A DNA stretch of 64,000 nt, taken from contig NC_134547.1 in the NCBI RefSeq assembly GCF_050624435.1, forward strand, positions 25,007,374-25,071,373. Reading direction: 5' to 3'. This stretch comes from Tenrec ecaudatus (taxonomy: Eukaryota > Chordata > Mammalia > Afrosoricida > Tenrecidae). Shown one piece after another: positions 45 to 64,000 of this stretch; the first letter of the stretch is position 1; the number at the start of each line of letters is the position of its first letter. Made by a program: the position numbers and the translations under genes. The notes beneath the pieces were generated by a model. That model was not told the origin of the DNA. It saw nothing but the letters and a program-made list of their open reading frames with translations, and searched no databases.

Positions 45-3000
45 GTAAACTACAAGCAGGAAATTGAACTAATGAAGAAAAACTTTGAGAAGGAGAAAAG
101 GGAAATGGAGCTTATGTTCAAAAGTGAAGTCAGCATGCTAGAGAACCAGAGAGCAGACCTGGAGGCGCTCCATGCACAGTCTCAGGATGCCCTTTGCAGC
201 CTGCAGGGGCAGCTGTGGTAGATAAGGAGTGGGGGCCCACATTGCCCCAAGGAGTTGGCCACCTTAGCTCAGTGGCCAGACGAGAAGCTACGCCTGAGAC
301 ACCAGCACGGACTACCACAAATCAGGTCTGCTGCCCTGTTTTCTTCTGGGTCCTCCTTCAGTCTGAAGTTCTTCCCAAAAACCCACATTAGATATTTAAT
401 TCAGGAAATGACTCAACTGCAGTGCATGCTAAGTGGGTAGTTTTTCTCTGGCCACAGAGAGGAAGGTAGGAAAAAATAGGGCTTTGTATGAGTTGTTTTA
501 ACTTAAATTAGAAATATATATATTAAAACTTAAGTTATGAAGTAATTTAGTTTGTAGACTACTTTTAACACATTCATATTTATTTTCTGCCTCAGACTTC
601 TCTGTAGCAAAGGAACAAAGTAGCAAAGCATCTTCCTTATTTAATGTCATGTTCTAATTTTCCAGTGCACGCGGTAGCATGTGGGCAAATGGAGAAAAAG
701 GCTAAAAGCTCCTTTGCAATAGGGAGGCCAGTTATCTGCGAAGGTAGCTTTTCAAAGCTGTCCTAAGCGAAAGGAGCCCTGCTGGGGCTTTGGGTTAGCA
801 TCAGGCTGCTAACTACAAGATTGGTGATTCCAACCTCCCAACTGCTTTGTGAGAGAAAAACAGACTTGCTCCTCCAAGAAGAGGGACCATCTGAGAGCCT
901 CGGCAGCAGTTTGCTCCATCCTGCAGAGCATAGGAGTTAGAATCGGTTTCATGGCAGCGAGTTGCTGTGTCATCACAAAGAAAAGCAATGAAAGATTTCT
1001 TTGGAAAACTGAGCGTATCAAGTAGGTTTCACTTAGTGGAATGATAACTGGTTGCTGCCAGCCCATGCCTATTTATCATGACCTCACTCTCCCACAGAGA
1101 ATCTTGGCCCTCGCCAACTTGGACACCAAGCGGGCTAGAGCCCTGCTGACCAGACCTGCAAAGCCTCCTTGGGAAGCATTCTTAGCTGGGAACATGGCTC
1201 GGGTTAGAAGTGGCACTACGATGACCACAGTGGACCAAGCCATCTCCCGTGTCCTGTGACCTGGGGAGGTTGATGATCCCAGAGCCAGTCTGCCTTTCTG
1301 TCATGGTGCAAGGAAATTGAGGCAGCTTGAGTATGGGCGGTAAAGAAAATCCTGGACTACTGAATTGTACCCTCTTCTGTACCCTGCCTTTCTGTTCCCC
1401 AAAAGATGACCACACAGTGGCCTCAGACCTGGGCGTTGCAATAACACATACTGCCCGCTAGGATGATCCAGAGCTTCCTCCTGAGAATTTTGCTTCATAG
1501 TATCTGAACCTGTGAACTGTCTGGTAAAGGGCGGGCTACTGTCCAGAACACCTTATAGACCATTGCCACTATTCCCAAGCCCTCTCAGGCTCTAAGAAGC
1601 AGCAAAGGGACATGTCTGGTCCCAGGAGTTTCCTTAACTGGCTGGAAGGCTGCTCCCACCCCCATTCCCACCCCATGTCATGATTGTGAGTCGAGCCATA
1701 TTGCATGACTCTGATGAGCTGAGTTACTCTTGTTCTCCCAGGCTGACTGCTCTCAGCTGGGCCTCACTCCACCTCAGTGTTATTTTCCTGGGGCTTCTAA
1801 AGGCCTCTTTCCTAGATGTTTAAAATACTTTTTAGAGTAATTTCGACTAAAGGTACTTTTTTTTTTCACTAAACTTTAGGCCAGTACTGCCCAATACAGC
1901 TTTCTGTAGTGATAGACATATCTTGTGTTTGCCTGCCCATTACAGGAGCCACTGGCCACATGGGGTCACTGAAAGTGACTGATGTGACCAAGAATCTGAG
2001 CTTTGATTTTATTCCATTTTAATCGGTCTAAATGTAAATTTAGTCCCATTTGACAAGTCGTGTCTGCTGCATTATCAACTAGATCTTGTGCATGCACTCT
2101 CTGAGCGCAGCTGGCACGAGTAGCGAGGAGTTGTGCACTTAGAACGTGCGCTTGGGCAGGCCTTTCTAACCCTGTGATACATGTGACATTCGTGTTTCTG
2201 AGCCAGGTCCATGTGAAAGTTTCTGTAGAAAGGGGGCAAAGGCTGAACTGAGCCAGAAACTCCTGTGAATGGAAGCAGCGCACTTGTTACAGCAATGGGA
2301 CTGTAAAAAGAAAAAGATGCTTCAGAGGCAACTGCAGCTAGTGACAGACATGGGAGCCCAGCTGGACTTGGACAAGGGATAGAGAAGAGAGGCAGAAGGA
2401 GATGCTAGCCCAGTGCAAGAAGCAGCAATGCAAGTTGGGTGGGGGGTGGAGGGTGGAGGGTGGCAGGGAGGGCTGATGAGTAAAGAGCAAGCTAAAATTT
2501 GCAAAGTGTTTGCACTTGAAAAGTTAGAAACCACATATAGGAAGCAATTAAAAGGGCTTTCCCTGGAGGCAGAGGGGCTGAAAGCCTTCTTGAAGGAGGG
2601 AAAGGCAACTGCCTCCAGGCCTGCTGAGGTCCACAGAAGTCAGAAAGGAGACGGGACCAGCAGGGTCAGAACGTGGAGAGGCTGAGTTCCTGCGTATGCC
2701 AGGGAGGCATCTCACTGCAGATCCTGTCCAGAGCCCGGTCCCGAGAGCAGCCCCACAGCCCAGAGGACCCTCTGCATAGCTCACTATCAGGGCCATCCCA
2801 TCTTGGTGAATGATATAGAGGTGGCTCCTGCTCCTTTAGAGACATGGGTGATGTATGCTATCCCCTAGAGGGGCAAGGCCCATGTTCCTGGAGAAACCCG
2901 TACCTTTGGCTAGCAGCCTTGCTGGTCAGAAGCAAAGATCATCTGAGCAGCAGGAGTCCAAAGCCACAGAGCAGCCCTTACTGGACATGGCTGGACACAA

Positions 3001-3212
3001 GCTGCCCCTCTAGGAGCCTCTGTGTCTTGGAAGGTGAGCATGGGGTAGGGACCACTAGGACAGGACAGCAGAAATTAGAAGATGCTGTACCGATAACAGA
3101 AGGTAGAAACTGTGCTGGAGAGAGAAAAGAATGACATGAAAACCAGGCTCCTACAGCTGGAAGATAAGCTTCTGGCTAGGGAGAAAGAAGCAGACTCGAG
3201 AGAGAATAACAG
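45..3212 (+). pseudogene. NIN: Giant internal exon of NIN, decayed inside
   Basis: The exon opens after a strong acceptor (pyrimidine tract then AG at 43-44). Codons 45-218 give 58 residues of charged coiled-coil beginning VNYKQEIELMKKNFEK, and then meet a TAG at 219-221. Later pieces of the same coiled-coil are recognisable at 2311-2378 (KMLQRQLQLVTDMGAQL), 2388-2420 in another frame (RQKEMLAQCKKQQ), 2479-2590 and 3130-3212 (NDMKTRLLQLEDKLLAREKE). The last piece ends in AG, which joins the A that opens the next exon to make Arg, so it is the true 3' end of the exon. Frame 0 at the start, frame 1 at the end, switches between, several stops and an AfroSINE near 776-965 show that it cannot be read through. 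In human NIN a single very large exon of roughly 2.1 kb (from memory) lies here; this one spans 3.2 kb. Splice sites are retained, the donor (AACAG/gtttgc) being weak. An assembly error is unlikely to explain this many lesions. Confidence 0.72.
776..965 (+). repeat. AfroSINE inside the decayed NIN exon
   Basis: It reads in the same order as other AfroSINEs in the window: ggctgctaactacaagattg, then a body with gggaccatctgagagcctc, then gagttagaatcggtttcatg. The sequence is well diverged, so the insertion is old. Its presence inside the exon boundaries is part of the evidence that the exon is not coding. Confidence 0.7.
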
Positions 3213-7140: not shown

Positions 7141-9455
<2,315 letters not shown>

Positions 9456-10195: not shown

Positions 10196-10265
10196 GAAAG
10201 AAATTGATATTTTAAAGAAAGAGAAATATCAGGCCTGCCTTGAAATGGAAATGATCAACAGTCAG
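10196..10265 (+). CDS. NIN: NIN coding exon (70 bp), coiled coil
   Basis: One base completes Arg, then 23 codons read KEIDILKKEKYQACLEMEMI and NSQ, continuing the coiled-coil. The acceptor is tttttcaacag/G and the donor AGTCAG/gtttag. The exon ends on a codon boundary and joins in frame to the exon at 18053 to give a NSQ-SQKYKDQLSQL junction, which matches the layout of vertebrate ninein. The exon is short and charged, with no motif beyond the heptads. The donor is unusual at +3 to +5 (gtttag rather than gtaagt), so it may be a weak site. A TTTC-rich run (10299-10328) begins about 30 bp downstream. Confidence 0.9.
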
Positions 10266-11569: not shown

Positions 11570-14136
11570 CCGGTGTTCATCGCAGCACAGTTTACAATTG
11601 CAAGGAGTTGGAAACAACCCAAATTTCCATCAACAGATGAATGGATTAAAAACCTATGGTACAGATGTGCTTTACATAATTGATGTATGTATGGATTGTG
11701 CTAAGAGTTGTATGAGCCTCTAATAAAATGATTTAAATAAAAACTATGGTACATACGTACACTGGAGTACTATACATCACTAAAAAGCAGTGATGAATGC
11801 ATGAAGCACCTTGCCACATGGGAAAAACTGGAGAAAATAATGCTAAACAAAGTAAGCCAAGCACAAAACACAAATACAACATGAGTCCGCTGAGGTAAAC
11901 TTAAAAAAAATGCAAAAGAGACATAAGGAAAAAGCTACTGTATACAAACATTCCTGGGGTGAGGTCCAGGTAGTATGGCAGGGGCCAGACCAAATCCAGG
12001 GATACATATGGTAGACAATTAAAAAGGTTGGGGGGGGGGAAGAAAATGAAATAAATGGGTAGCTGGGGAACAGGGAACTAACCCATCCAAGGGGAGGGTC
12101 TTGTTCATATCGTCGCCGGGAAAGAAGGACCAGACTTCTACCCCATGCTCCAAGATGTGAATGCAACATACTGGCATGAAGCAAGGAACCAGTAGAGAGG
12201 TCTGAGGGGTTGGCCCCAATCCCAACTACATGGACAGCAGCCCTTGCCCCCAGAAGAAAGTACTTCAGAGGATAGCATTGAAGCTACAGCTCCGAGAGAG
12301 GGACATGTCTGATCAGAGCAAATCGAAGCAAATGAAGGGGGAGGAAGAGAGACTGGAGCACATCCTGGCCCACCAAGCCTTAAGGACAATATCCCCACTA
12401 AGAACAGCCAATGCACAGAGAGGACCATATGGCTGGTCCCACTATGAGACAGGACATCCCCCACTGACCCATAGCCCTATAGGGGACAACACTGGAGACA
12501 CAGTGTGGGAATTAGACCGATCTGACCCCACCACACTGAGGCAAAACATGAAGGGCATGCAACAGAACAGCAAGGGGAGCAGAGCAAGGAAGTCCCGAGG
12601 CATTATCAAAAATAGACTTTGGGTTCAGAGCATGGCACCCCATCAGGCTCAATCAGCAAACACTCGCAAATGTCAACAAACAGACCTTGAACTATTGACA
12701 GGCTTTTCTTTTTTGTGTCATTTGTTTTTTGGTGGTGTTGTTTTGTTTTCTTTTGTTGCTTTGTTTTGTTCTGTCTTGTTTTTGTGTATATTATTATCTC
12801 TGCAGGTCTATCTAGATAAAATAGGTGGGATAAACAATCTGGAGGAGAAAACAATGGGACTGACAGTTCCGGGGGGACATGAGAGAGGGGAAGGTTGGGG
12901 AAAAGAAGTGGTTAACAAACCAAGGGACAAGAGAACAACAAGTGATCCAAAATCAGTGGTGAGGAGCGTGTAAGAGGCCTGGTAGGGCTTGATCATGTGT
13001 AATGTAACCGAGAGGAATTACTGAAACCCTAATGAAGGCTGAACATGAACAAGAGCAAAGTAAAAGGAAATAGAGGAAAGAACTGCAAGGCACATAGCAT
13101 TTATAGAGCTCTAAATATAGGCATGTACATATGTAAATATATTTATATATGATGATGGAGAAATAGAACTATGCATATATTTATAGGTTTAGTATTAAAG
13201 TAGCAGATGGACATTTGGCCCCTACTCAAGTACTCTCTCAATGTAAGAACACTTGTTCTATTAAACTGGCATTCCATGATGCTCACCTTCCAGACACAAT
13301 CACTGAAGGCAAATGTGGTGAAGAAAGTCAATGGTGTCGGCTATCAAAAGATATAGCATCTAGAGTCTTAAAGGTTTGAAGGTAAACAAGTGGCCTTCTA
13401 GGCCAACCAAAGCCCACATGGAAGAAGCACACCAGCCTGTGTGATCATGAAGTGTCAAAGGGATCAGCTATCAGGCATCAAAGAACAAAGAATAATATCA
13501 TTGTGAATGAGGGGAGTGCAGATTGGGGACCCAAAGCCCATCTGTAGGCAACTGGACACCCCCTTACAGAAGGGCCACGGGGAGGAGATGGGCCAGTCAG
13601 GGTGCAGTGTAGCAATGATGAACATACAACTTTCCTCTATTTCTTAAATGTTTCCTCCCCACCACTATCATGATCCCAATTCTATCTTACAAATCTGGCT
13701 AGACCAGAGGATGTATACTGGTACAGATAGGAACTGAAAACACAGGGAATCCAGGATAGATGAACCCTTCAGGACCAGTGGTGGGAGTGGCAATACTGGG
13801 AGGGTGGAGGGAAGGTGGGGGTAGAAAGAGAGAACCAATTACAATGAGCTACATATAACCCCCTCCCTGGGGGATGTACAACTGAAAAGTGGGTGAAGAG
13901 AGACGTTGAACAGTGTAAGACATGACTAATAATAATTTATAAATTATTAAGTGTTCATGAGAAAGGGGGGCAGGGAGGGAGGGTAAAAAATGAGCTCATA
14001 CCAAGGACTCAAGTAGAAAGCAATGTTTTGAGAATGATGAGGGCAACAAATGTACAAATGTGCTGACACAATGGATGTATGTATGGATTGTGATAAAAGT
14101 AGTATGAGCCCCCAATAAAATAATTACCCCCAAAAA
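11570..14136 (+). mobile_element. L1 3' end (ORF2 tail plus about 2 kb 3' UTR) nested in an older L1
   Basis: It starts in the late L1 region ggtgttcatcgcagcacagt, passes through the family 3' UTR and ends gtatgagcccccaataaaat near 14125. A 14-bp target-site duplication with one mismatch bounds it (11556-11569 and 14137-14150). The 3' UTR here is unusually long, and it holds a 247-codon sense open frame at 12230-12973 that I take as chance. A further tiny L1 tail sits inside it at 11664-11738. Confidence 0.85.
11664..11738 (+). mobile_element. 75-bp L1 tail insertion with target-site duplication
   Basis: Only the last part of the L1 3' UTR (gatgtgctttacataattga to taataaaatgatttaaat) is present. 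It splits the host L1 text aaaaacctatggtaca, which is repeated on the other side as aaaaactatggtaca (11648-11663 and 11739-11753). It is a normal, extremely 5'-truncated retrotransposition. Confidence 0.8.
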
Positions 14137-18052: not shown

Positions 18053-18211
18053 AGTCAGAAATACAAGGATCAGTTATCTCAGCTCAACCATAGGATCCTT
18101 CACCTGGGTGAGGAGGCCTTTGTCCACAAGGCTCAAAATGAGAAAAATCAAGTACCCGTTCAGTTGCTGACACTGAAGATGGATCGGGCTGGTCACCAGG
18201 TGAAAGAGCAG
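18053..18211 (+). CDS. NIN: NIN coding exon (53 codons), coiled coil
   Basis: Reads SQKYKDQLSQLNHRILHLGE, then a less heptad-like stretch EAFVHKAQNEKNQVPVQLLT, ending DRAGHQVKEQ. The SQKYKDQLSQLNHRIL part is highly characteristic of ninein. Acceptor gctctag/AGT, donor GAGCAG/gtgagt, both good; the length is exactly 53 codons in phase 0. A second GT (CACCAG/gtgaaa at 18199-18200) could act as an alternative donor, also in frame. The substitutions here look like normal mammalian divergence, not decay. In human, alternative exons are known in the C-terminal part of NIN; none is visible to me between here and 21950. Confidence 0.93.
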
Positions 18212-18339
18212 GTGAGTGGGCAGTGCAGAGTGGGAATATGAGAGCAACAACTTAAAGATATGGAGACATACACTGCCCCACACATAGCCAGGAAGCCTGG
18301 GGGAAAAGAACATGGAATATCATAGTTTTTTATAAATTC

Positions 18340-20375
18340 GCTTTATTTAGAAGAGTAGCATAAAGGAATTAAATCTTAAAAAGAGAGTAAATTCCTACAA
18401 CCTTTCTGAAAAGACAAGTTGAAAATATGGATAGCAAGAGCCTCAAGAATCTCATTATAAGAAGTGAAACTTCACTCTTTGCAAATAATATGATTTTATA
18501 TATTGAGAATCCTAAAGGGTCCACAAGAGACTAGCTGGAAGTCATAGAGGAGTTTAGTAGAGTAGCAGTATACAAGAGTAACAATTGACTTCTTCTATAC
18601 CAGGGATGGGGGTACAGAAAAAGATACCAAGGAATCAGTATCCTTTGCAAAAGCTGAAATACCTGGGAATAAACTTAACCAAAAACCAAGACTTGTACGA
18701 AGAAAACTATAGAACATTACTATAAGAAGCCAACCGGGATCTACACAAATGGAAGCATATTCCGTGTTTGTGGATCAGAAGACTCAGTATTGTGAGAATG
18801 TTGATACTATCTAAAACAATCTACAAATAAAATGCATTGCCGATCCAAATTCTAACATCATTCTTCAAAGAAATGGAAACACTAATTATTAACTCCATAT
18901 AAAAAGGGAAGAAACCCAGGATAAGCAAAGAACTCCCCAAGAAAAAGAACAAAGCAGGTGATCTCACATTACTTGACCCCAAAACCTACTTATACAGCCA
19001 CAGTTGTCAAAACAGTCTGATACTGGTATACTGATACATGCTCCCTGTCACTAGCCACCCAGGAAATGTGAGTCAAAATGACCATAAGATCCCACCTAAT
19101 GCCCATAACTAGCCCAATTAAAAAAAACCAGAATGTGAAAGGGAGGATAGGGCGGAGGTAGGGGGAGGAATGAGGAGCTGATGCCAAGGGCTCAAGTAGA
19201 AAGAAAATATTTTGAAAATGATGATGGCAACAAATGAACAAATGTGCTTGACACAATGGAAGGATTACAATAAGTTGTACAAGTCCCCAATAAAATGATT
19301 TTTCAAAAGAAACAGAACAACAAATGTTGGAGAGTGTGTGGTGAGATAGGAACTCTTATCCCCTGATGGTGGACTGGTAAATATGTACAGGCACTCTGGA
19401 AGGCAGTATGGCGATACCTAAAACAGATGGCAACTGAACTACCATATGATCCAGCAATACCATTGCTGGTATGTACCCCAAAGAAATAAGAAGCAGATCA
19501 CGGACAGATGTTTCCCTCCCCTATGGTCATCACAGCAGAGTTCATAGTAGCAAAAAGCTGGTGGGTGGGCAGGAAGAAGCTGGAAACAGCCTACATTACC
19601 ATCAGTACAAGAATGGATAAAAACTCTGGTACATACATACAATGGAATACATCCCTAAAAACAGCAATGAAACACCTCAAGTTGTAGAGGCATCTGGAAG
19701 ATATTATGCTGAGTGAAGCTAGTCAAGCACAGAAGGATAAACACTGTGTGAGTCCACGATAATAGGAACATGCAGCAGAACGGGCACAAGTTCAAGTGTG
19801 CAGGCCATCCAGTCGTCTGGCTGGGGACCAGGCAGGCCGCTAAAGAGCCACACATCATCTGCTCAAAGTAAGTATCATGTAGGTCACTTGGCCGAAGGTC
19901 ACCTCATGAGAGCTGGAATCAGATGGATGGGGTGGGGTTGATGCTGGTCCCTGAGAGGTAGCCATGTGGATTTGGGGTGAGGTCTCCCAGAGAGGGAATC
20001 AGCCCTGTCAGAGGAATGGGGCTTACTGATGCGAGGGGCAGCACAGGAAAGAAGAAAGGCAATGGTCAAATTTGGGGGAACATAGGTGCATGCCTGTTGA
20101 GGGGAGAAGAGGGAGGGCTGACATTGTGGGGGGAGGGGTGTCCAGTGAGGTTGCTCTTGGGAGGACCTGATGCAGAGGGGTTAAGTGGAGAGCAAATGCT
20201 TTGAGAGTGATTAGGGCAAAGAATGTATGGATGTGCTTTATACAATTGATGTATGTATATGTATGGATTGTGATAAGAGTTGTATGAGCCCCTAATAAAT
20301 TGTTTAAAAAATAATAATAAATTTTTTTAAAGTTGTATGAGCCCCTAATAAAATGATTTTTTAAAATACTGTAAA
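18340..20375 (+). mobile_element. L1: end of ORF2 and 3' UTR, plus strand
   Basis: Decayed ORF2 C-terminal text (gcaaataatatgattttata, gaaaactatagaacattact, tggaagcatattccgtgttt) is followed by the late region ggagagtgtgtggtgagata and a 3' UTR variant with gtctcccagagagggaatca shared with 39,330. The end is doubled: a full tail to about 20,305 is followed by a second short tail at 20,332-20,362. A separate L1 3' piece is nested at about 19,125-19,312. Confidence 0.85.
19125..19312 (+). mobile_element. Nested L1 3' tail
   Basis: It interrupts the host L1 between gcccaattaaaaaaaac and aacaaatgttggagagtgtg, which are contiguous in the copy at 38,650-38,690. The end is caagtccccaataaaatgat. It belongs to the 'gctcaagtagaaag' tail type, unlike its host. 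Confidence 0.75.
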
Positions 20376-20379
20376 AAAA

Positions 20380-20930
20380 GAAACCAAACTTGACCAACAG
20401 TTACCATGGGTGAAGGGGAAAGATCTGTTGCTTTGGGAGCATTGAGTTTCTGTCACTGTGGTCGATAGTTTGAAAAAGGATAACAATGATAGTTGTACAA
20501 CATTAAGAATATTATTGAGCCTCTTCTCGCTCTGAATTATACAACTAGAAGTTGTGCAATTGGAAAATATTTCTGTATATTTGTGCCACAGTTAGAAAAA
20601 AATAAGTACATGAATTACAATGAGTACAAGGAAGAAGAAAAAGGTTTTGAATTAAATATTGTAACAATTGGACAACTTTTCTTGATCTGATTGAATTGTA
20701 TGACGTGGGTGAAGTGCTAATACAACTGTTTTAAAAGATGTGATGCAAAACAATAATATGGATTATTCGGGAGAACATGATGCTGAGTGAAATTAGTCAA
20801 TCACAAGAGACAGATATTGTATGAGACCACTACTGCAAACGGTTTTCATATTGAAAAATAAATAACGAGATAGAAAGAAACTCCATGTGGTTACAGATCA
20901 GATCAGGTTTTCTGGGATGTTAGAATTACA
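20380..20930 (+). repeat. Old L1 3' ends
   Basis: Two older-type L1 3' ends follow each other: gttaccatgggtgaagggga to about 20,735, then gaacatgatgctgagtgaaa onward. No open frame. Confidence 0.5.
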
Positions 20931-21035
20931 GAGTCAGATCATGACCAAGAAAGCCCCATGGAGCACTTCGACTCTGACAAATACATGTGTTGCCGTGAGT
21001 TAGAACTAACTCCACAGCATCAGTTTTCGTTATTA
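20925..21035 (+). repeat. AfroSINE fragment
   Basis: Partial copy with ggagcacttcgactctgaca and gagttagaactaactccaca, matching the 3' part of the AfroSINE in plus orientation. Confidence 0.55.
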
Positions 21036-21059
21036 ACTGCTGTCTCTTGTTCCCATTCA

Positions 21060-21535
21060 GGATGACGCTTAGGGTTGCCCGTAGGCATGCCCTGTACCCA
21101 AGATTAAAGTTTCATGCAGAATAATTTCACTGCCCTTAAAATTCTCTACTCCACCTGTTTGTTCCTCTATTGTTCCTTGAACTCCTGCTAGTCGCTGACC
21201 TTGTTTCTGTCTCTTTAATTTTGCTTTATAATTGGAATCATGCATTATGTAGCTTTTTCAGACTGGTTTCTCGTACTTAATAAGTACTTAAGTTTCCTCC
21301 ATATTTTTTTCATGGCTTGATGGCTCATTTATTTTTTTTGCTAGATAATATTTCCATGATACAGATATGCTCGTTTGTTTAGCCATTGACCTGTTGAAGG
21401 ACCTCTTGATTACTTCCAGTTTGGGGCAATAATGAATAAAATTACGATAAATATTTGTATGCAAGCTTTTATGTGGATACAGATTTTCAACTCATTTGAG
21501 TAAATACCTAGGAACACAACTGCTAAAACATATGG
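21060..21535 (-). repeat. Ancient L1 fragment, antisense
   Basis: gtttgtttagccattgacct, gaaggacctcttgattactt and caactcatttgagtaaatac are standard phrases of antisense old L1 ORF2/3' UTR in mammals. Confidence 0.7.
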
Positions 21536-21539
21536 CAGG

Positions 21540-21735
21540 CCTTTGGAATAGTGGTTACATTACCAGATAAGTATTGGACTGCTGACAGCGAGATTGACAG
21601 TTCAAATCCACCAGATGATCCGAGGGGAAAAGATAAGCCTATCTATTCCCATAAAGAAATCCTGTCAGAAACTCTATAGAGGGACGCTGTGAGTCAAATT
21701 GGCTTGATGGCATTGTTTTTGTTTTTTTGTAAGCC
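21540..21735 (+). repeat. AfroSINE, plus strand
   Basis: ggactgctgacagcgagatt, agttcaaatccaccagatga, ataaagaaatcctgtcagaa and ctgtgagtcaaattggcttg follow the AfroSINE from A box-like head to tail. It lies about 215 bp upstream of the next NIN exon. Confidence 0.85.
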
Positions 21736-21928
21736 TATGTAAGAAACTGCCACTGTCGGATTCCTATGCAAAACACTACGCCCTGCGCCACACCTATACT
21801 CCTGACAGCTTGTTAGCATCCCATGTTCAGACAGAGGCTCGTAGCTAGTAACTTGTAGATGTGTACATTTCGCCCAAATACCATTTTAAATGTCTTGAAG
21901 TTAGTTCTTTTAAAACATAATTTTTTGA

Positions 21929-22653
<725 letters not shown>

Positions 22654-30800: not shown

Positions 30801-30992
<192 letters not shown>

Positions 30993-63310: not shown

Positions 63311-64000
<690 letters not shown>

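Follow-up and report, generated by a model that had tools for sequence, protein, structure and literature searches.

Decay of NINL exon 17 in the tenrec Tenrec ecaudatus, with the following exons intact

We analyzed a 64,000-nucleotide stretch of Tenrec ecaudatus DNA, referred to here as the window. A ninein-family coiled coil is encoded at its start, at 45-218, as a sequence-only reading of the DNA had recognized. That reading named the gene as NIN. However, the best protein match of 45-218 was NINL. All three of the matches at an E value of 1e-3, among 18 candidates, were NINL proteins, to which the translation was 98% (T. ecaudatus), 91% (Echinops telfairi), and 76% (the manatee Trichechus inunguis) identical. 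The public T. ecaudatus protein, P0001, is the representative of a cluster of seven sequences. No NIN protein reached the same threshold among the 18 candidates. When the three NINL proteins were used as tblastn queries, NINL exons were found spread over 45-30992. A convergent neighbor lies downstream of NINL. There, tblastn placed the end of the GINS1 (PSF1) coding sequence at 63842-63910 on the minus strand, and the 23-residue translation of this segment, the GINS1 C terminus, matches PDB PSF1 chains (2.7e-11). GINS1 adjoins NINL on human chromosome 20, and NIN is on chromosome 14. With every match to NINL and with GINS1 downstream, the gene is NINL rather than NIN.

The region from 45 to 3212 had been read as one giant exon of 3,168 nt. 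It consists instead of exon 16 (45-325), intron 16 (326-2228), and exon 17 (2229-3212), all on the plus strand. Earlier NINL exons, including those for the N-terminal EF hands expected of a NINL orthologue, would lie beyond the edge of the window. Exon 16, so called because the exon that follows corresponds to human exon 17, is 281 nt long, starts in phase 0, and ends in phase 2 at a GT donor (326-327); tblastn aligned residues 556 to 648 of P0001 with 51-329 (96%). Its end is fixed at window position 325 by the short elephant isoform X9 (P0007), which reads ...LRLRHQHELQQVR up to the junction and IELQRLSEQ after it, and also by the join in P0001. In the elephant long form (P0005), a segment running from KEAEAELSQ... 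to ...TRENNR is inserted between the two halves of the junction. Because the elephant has both forms with that junction, exon 16 is 45-325, and the large exon is a separate one after it.

Intron 16 begins with GT (326-327) and ends with AG (2227-2228), and none of the three NINL proteins matched between 336 and 2223 at an E value of <0.05. Given exon boundaries at 325 and 2229, most of the inside of 45-3212 is therefore intron. A SINE had been placed within the exon. A SINE-like stretch is present (approximately 767-965), which we presume to be AfroSINE-like and which had no second copy in the window by blastn at an E value of 1e-3, but it is intronic and irrelevant to the exon. Two other descriptions of this region were rejected. 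A 1.9-kb insertion splitting one exon was dropped because elephant X9 shows exons 16 and 17 to be separate. A single NIN-matching exon of about 2.1 kb does not fit the layout of NINL exon 16, intron, and exon 17.

Exon 17 is 984 nt long, is in phase 2 at both ends, and keeps its flanking AG and GT. Its equivalent in human NINL (P0074) is residues 735 to 1083, and these 349 residues are the exact length by which human isoform B is shorter. The exon had been thought to make up about a third of ninein, whereas it corresponds to about a quarter of human NINL isoform A (349 of 1,382 residues). Five intact exons follow on the plus strand, numbered from 18 on by our own count at this locus: exon 18 (8079-8183), exon 19 (10196-10265), exon 20 (18053-18211), exon 21 (21950-22063), and exon 22 (30801-30992), which is the last coding exon and ends with a stop codon.

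Some further features were seen along the locus. Between exons 19 and 20, window positions 12251-12385 form an open frame of coiled-coil-like composition, for which the NINL proteins used gave no match at an E value of <0.05. Some lemur and bat NINL models have an extra block, very roughly 35 to 100 residues long, between exons 20 and 21, and nothing better than an E value of 3 was found for it in window 18212-21949. Manatee, dugong, and elephant models also lack the block, but so does one mouse lemur isoform, so the block may be optional and not something that afrotherians have lost. A 27-base repeat occurs in nine plus-strand copies (at 20239, 37490, 37608, 41512, 53348, 53466, 54209, 55914, and 56034), eight of them exact and one with two mismatches, where none is expected. 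Three pairs of copies are spaced 118 to 120 bases apart, and the 27 bases are probably the tail of an element that was active in the recent past.

The sequence-only reading had reported frame changes and further stops before 3212. We examined exon 17 by aligning 2230-3210, with a frameshift-aware method, to its counterparts in manatee, dugong, and elephant. Compared with the manatee, there were seven frameshifts and two stops along the whole exon, with 186 of 306 aligned residues identical, which confirms that report. The dugong alignment also had seven frameshifts and two stops (185 of 312 residues identical), and the elephant alignment had eight frameshifts and one stop (181 of 311). The manatee alignment scored 611, compared with -129 to -204 for six shuffles and -173 to -229 for three other noncoding stretches of the window. 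The best tblastn E value was about 1e-26. Exons 18 to 22 (640 nt) contained no frameshifts and no premature stops in the same kind of alignment, so that all five are undamaged, as had been proposed; exon 16 had no frameshifts and one stop. Even where it is intact, exon 17 evolves fast, with identity to the manatee exon of 38% in human, 55% in mouse lemur, 53% in armadillo, and 80% in elephant. Therefore, identity alone would not reveal decay. The decay of exon 17 is real and is more than chance. It was right that a large, frame-neutral, alternatively spliced exon of the ninein family has decayed, but this is exon 17 of NINL and not an exon of NIN.

Because exon 17 is in phase 2 at both ends, skipping it preserves the frame from exon 16 into exon 18. 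When exon 16 was joined to exons 18 to 22, the result stayed in frame for 307 codons, counting the terminal stop, and was interrupted once, by the premature stop at 219-221. The T. ecaudatus protein P0001 makes the same join from exon 16 to exon 18, without exon 17. In the Echinops protein (P0002), exon 16 is followed directly by exon 20, so that exons 17, 18, and 19 are all missing; given the two further exons skipped, this gene model may be poor. Exon 17 has lost its reading frame, and an mRNA that skips the exon would still read from exon 16 into exon 18, so that the gene could continue to produce an isoform-B-like NINL. An mRNA with exon 17 spliced in would run into a TGA at 2266-2268 (plus strand), the 13th full codon of the exon, and the remnant would be at most a poison exon. 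Exon 17 is presumably skipped in tenrec mRNA, and the tenrec can probably make only the short form of NINL, without isoform A.

We also scored the donors of exons 16 to 19 with an approximate donor matrix, which gave 0.34 for exon 16, 0.34 for exon 17, 2.58 for exon 18, and -3.39 for exon 19. By this approximate matrix, 90% of the GTs in the window score below 0.63. The exon 17 donor is not clearly dead, because its score equals that of the exon 16 donor, and this counts against skipping. The polypyrimidine content of exon 17 was the lowest of seven (0.53, versus 0.59 to 0.88). Our main reading, to which we assign a probability of about 0.88, is that the window is the orthologous tenrec NINL locus, that exon 17 has lost its frame and is noncoding, and that an isoform-B-like NINL can still be made by skipping it.

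A stop at 219-221 had been counted as damage to the giant exon. The TAG is present on the plus strand, but it sits in exon 16, one exon before the decayed one, and does not belong to the exon 17 decay. This codon is Glu612 in P0001 and is also Glu in Echinops P0002. Of 247 residues compared between the window and P0001, 5 differ, and the window also lacks one codon. Three of the differences are among the 93 residues of exon 16 (the stop, Met to Ile, and Ser to Asn), where the codon is also missing, and exons 20 to 22 have two in 154 residues. Between T. ecaudatus and Echinops NINL, 11 of 94 residues differ in exon 16 and 22 of 154 in exons 20 to 22. With the Tenrec/Echinops split set at 14.37 million years, a rough clock would put the window about 2 million years from P0001, a distance that points to T. 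ecaudatus itself or a close sister species. The exon 16 TAG is private to a lineage or allele, segregating, or an error. An allele that carries it would encode a NINL cut short where residue 612 of 859 should be. On its own, the TAG would bar full isoform B from that allele, which counts against our main reading.

The TAG might also be a sign that NINL is disappearing altogether from this lineage, with exon 17 decaying first and the exon 16 stop then truncating the protein and making nonsense-mediated decay likely. Consistent with this, the TAG sits in an exon that is common to nearly all of the proteins compared. Exon 16 was at least half filled in 136 of the 139 rows of the NINL alignment described below, and of the other three (P0006, P0007, and P0117), P0007 contains it by eye. 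The four changes in the window relative to P0001 are also clustered in exon 16. However, the five later exons are open, with two differences from T. ecaudatus in exons 20 to 22, and the public T. ecaudatus protein P0001 has no stop there. We therefore consider loss of the whole gene unlikely. Sequencing or assembly errors could be proposed as the cause of the stop and the frame changes, and the absence of the exon 16 TAG from P0001 would fit. Even so, such errors would have to produce nine damaging events in exon 17 (984 nt) while sparing exons 18 to 22 (640 nt) entirely. Two tenrec gene models lack exon 17, and the exon 16 stop comes with three other differences, which makes this explanation quite improbable. 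We hold it less probable still that the window contains a pseudogene or an incomplete duplicate while an intact NINL lies elsewhere, because its introns and splice sites, the undamaged later exons, and GINS1 downstream are those of the original locus, and the exon start is 98% identical to annotated T. ecaudatus NINL. NIN also has a large skippable exon (713 amino acids in human), but the identification as NIN exon 18, as first read, deserves almost no credence when the three matches are all NINL, the exon has the size and position of NINL exon 17, and the neighbor is GINS1.

To place the tenrec locus among other mammals, we aligned 139 NINL proteins: the three already used, 119 from the best 120 of 1,000, and 17 that had been found as exon 17-containing. 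The rows of this survey are proteins rather than species, with several isoforms of one species, and they are a nonrandom sample of gene models, not DNA. Among the 139 proteins, the exon 17 block held 0 or 1 residue in 19, 62 to 157 residues in 26, and 276 to 396 residues in 93. Elephant X9 (P0007) was misaligned, and exon 17 is absent from it by eye. The proteins without exon 17 were those of the tenrec, Echinops, a golden mole, all six bats listed, and a colugo, and also those of four lemurs, a fur seal, and Talpa, two sea lion models, and one unnamed protein. Other NINL models of Talpa, sea lion, and mouse lemur do contain the exon. The single NINL models of Eulemur, Propithecus, and Prolemur lack exon 17, although the exon is present in the ring-tailed lemur and the mouse lemur. 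Therefore, absence from models is weak evidence, and this applies to the bats, colugo, and golden mole. The list of exon 17-holding proteins (72 matches among 7,993 scored) omits human NINL, which does contain the exon, and so cannot show absence; the omission probably arose because scoring was limited to those candidates with the most shared words.

Most of the partial exon 17 models (24 of 26) are from dog-like carnivores. In bear, seals, walrus, mustelids, foxes, and raccoon dog (P0057, P0058, P0072, P0080, and others), the exon is cut to approximately 96 to 135 residues, with the middle missing. Full-length exon 17 models also exist for sea lion, elephant seal, and painted dog. One Sigmodon hispidus protein (P0034) is named ninein at its source and aligns as NINL, including exon 17.

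The NINL gene models of two tenrecs, P0001 of T. ecaudatus and P0002 of Echinops, are without exon 17. This suggests that the exon was lost before about 14 million years ago, and the loss would then predate the Tenrec/Echinops split, dated to 14.37 million years (PMC13063843, in excerpt). The golden mole NINL model (P0032) is also without exon 17. If the golden mole DNA is damaged likewise, the loss would be older than about 49 million years (date from the excerpted text of PMC13063843).

Human NINL isoform B arises by skipping of exon 17 and is 349 residues shorter, and the zebrafish ninl transcripts that were identified lack exon 17 (PMC4617701, in excerpt). The tenrec resembles human isoform B (isoform 2) and zebrafish ninl in having no exon 17 segment and in joining exon 16 in frame to the next exon. 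However, this is a splicing choice in human NINL, whereas in the tenrec the exon itself is damaged and isoform A is probably unmakeable. In the paralogous gene, NIN exon 18 is likewise a large frame-neutral cassette exon, and its skipping occurs in neurons (PMC6429586, in excerpt). The loss had been interpreted through the centrosomal and noncentrosomal forms of ninein. That switch concerns NIN exon 18 (713 amino acids in human and 707 in mouse) and is described for NIN, not NINL. Because the gene is NINL, this biology does not transfer.

Lineage-specific exon loss in mammals is a known general class. Tenrec NINL conforms to it, with frameshifts and stops concentrated in one exon and the later exons intact. 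It differs in that the exon holds viral protease sites and many codons positively selected in primates (PMC9651953, in excerpt). Among the papers listed by our literature searches, none, judged by its title and the opening of its abstract, dealt with tenrec NINL or reported that mammals had lost NINL exon 17. In mechanism this is exon loss of the ordinary kind, harmless to the frame through the symmetry of the exon. A relaxed need for isoform A may have allowed it, and a simpler cause than protease escape is that an optional exon had become dispensable.

Human NINL exon 17 includes two of the three mapped coxsackievirus B3 3C cleavage sites, Q827 and Q1032, as well as the many positively selected codons (PMC9651953, in excerpt). 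A check of positions placed both sites inside human exon 17 residues 735 to 1083. According to the same excerpted text, human isoform 2 is little cleaved by 3C, and NINL is a dynein adaptor whose knockout leaves human cells less responsive to interferon (PMC9651953). The 3C sites and the positively selected codons make the loss of this exon worth testing. Protease escape as its cause is speculation. It is also doubtful that exon 17 was lost or shortened independently in tenrecs and golden mole, in bats, in the colugo, and partly in dog-like carnivores, fixing an isoform without the main picornaviral 3C sites. If this were true, exon loss would be a host route out of a protease arms race, with tenrecs as its end state. 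A large-exon finding of this kind needs checking against the paralogue and the exon map. An animal unable to make exon 17 would be a natural test of the role of isoform A and of how well the loss of a cleavable segment is tolerated.
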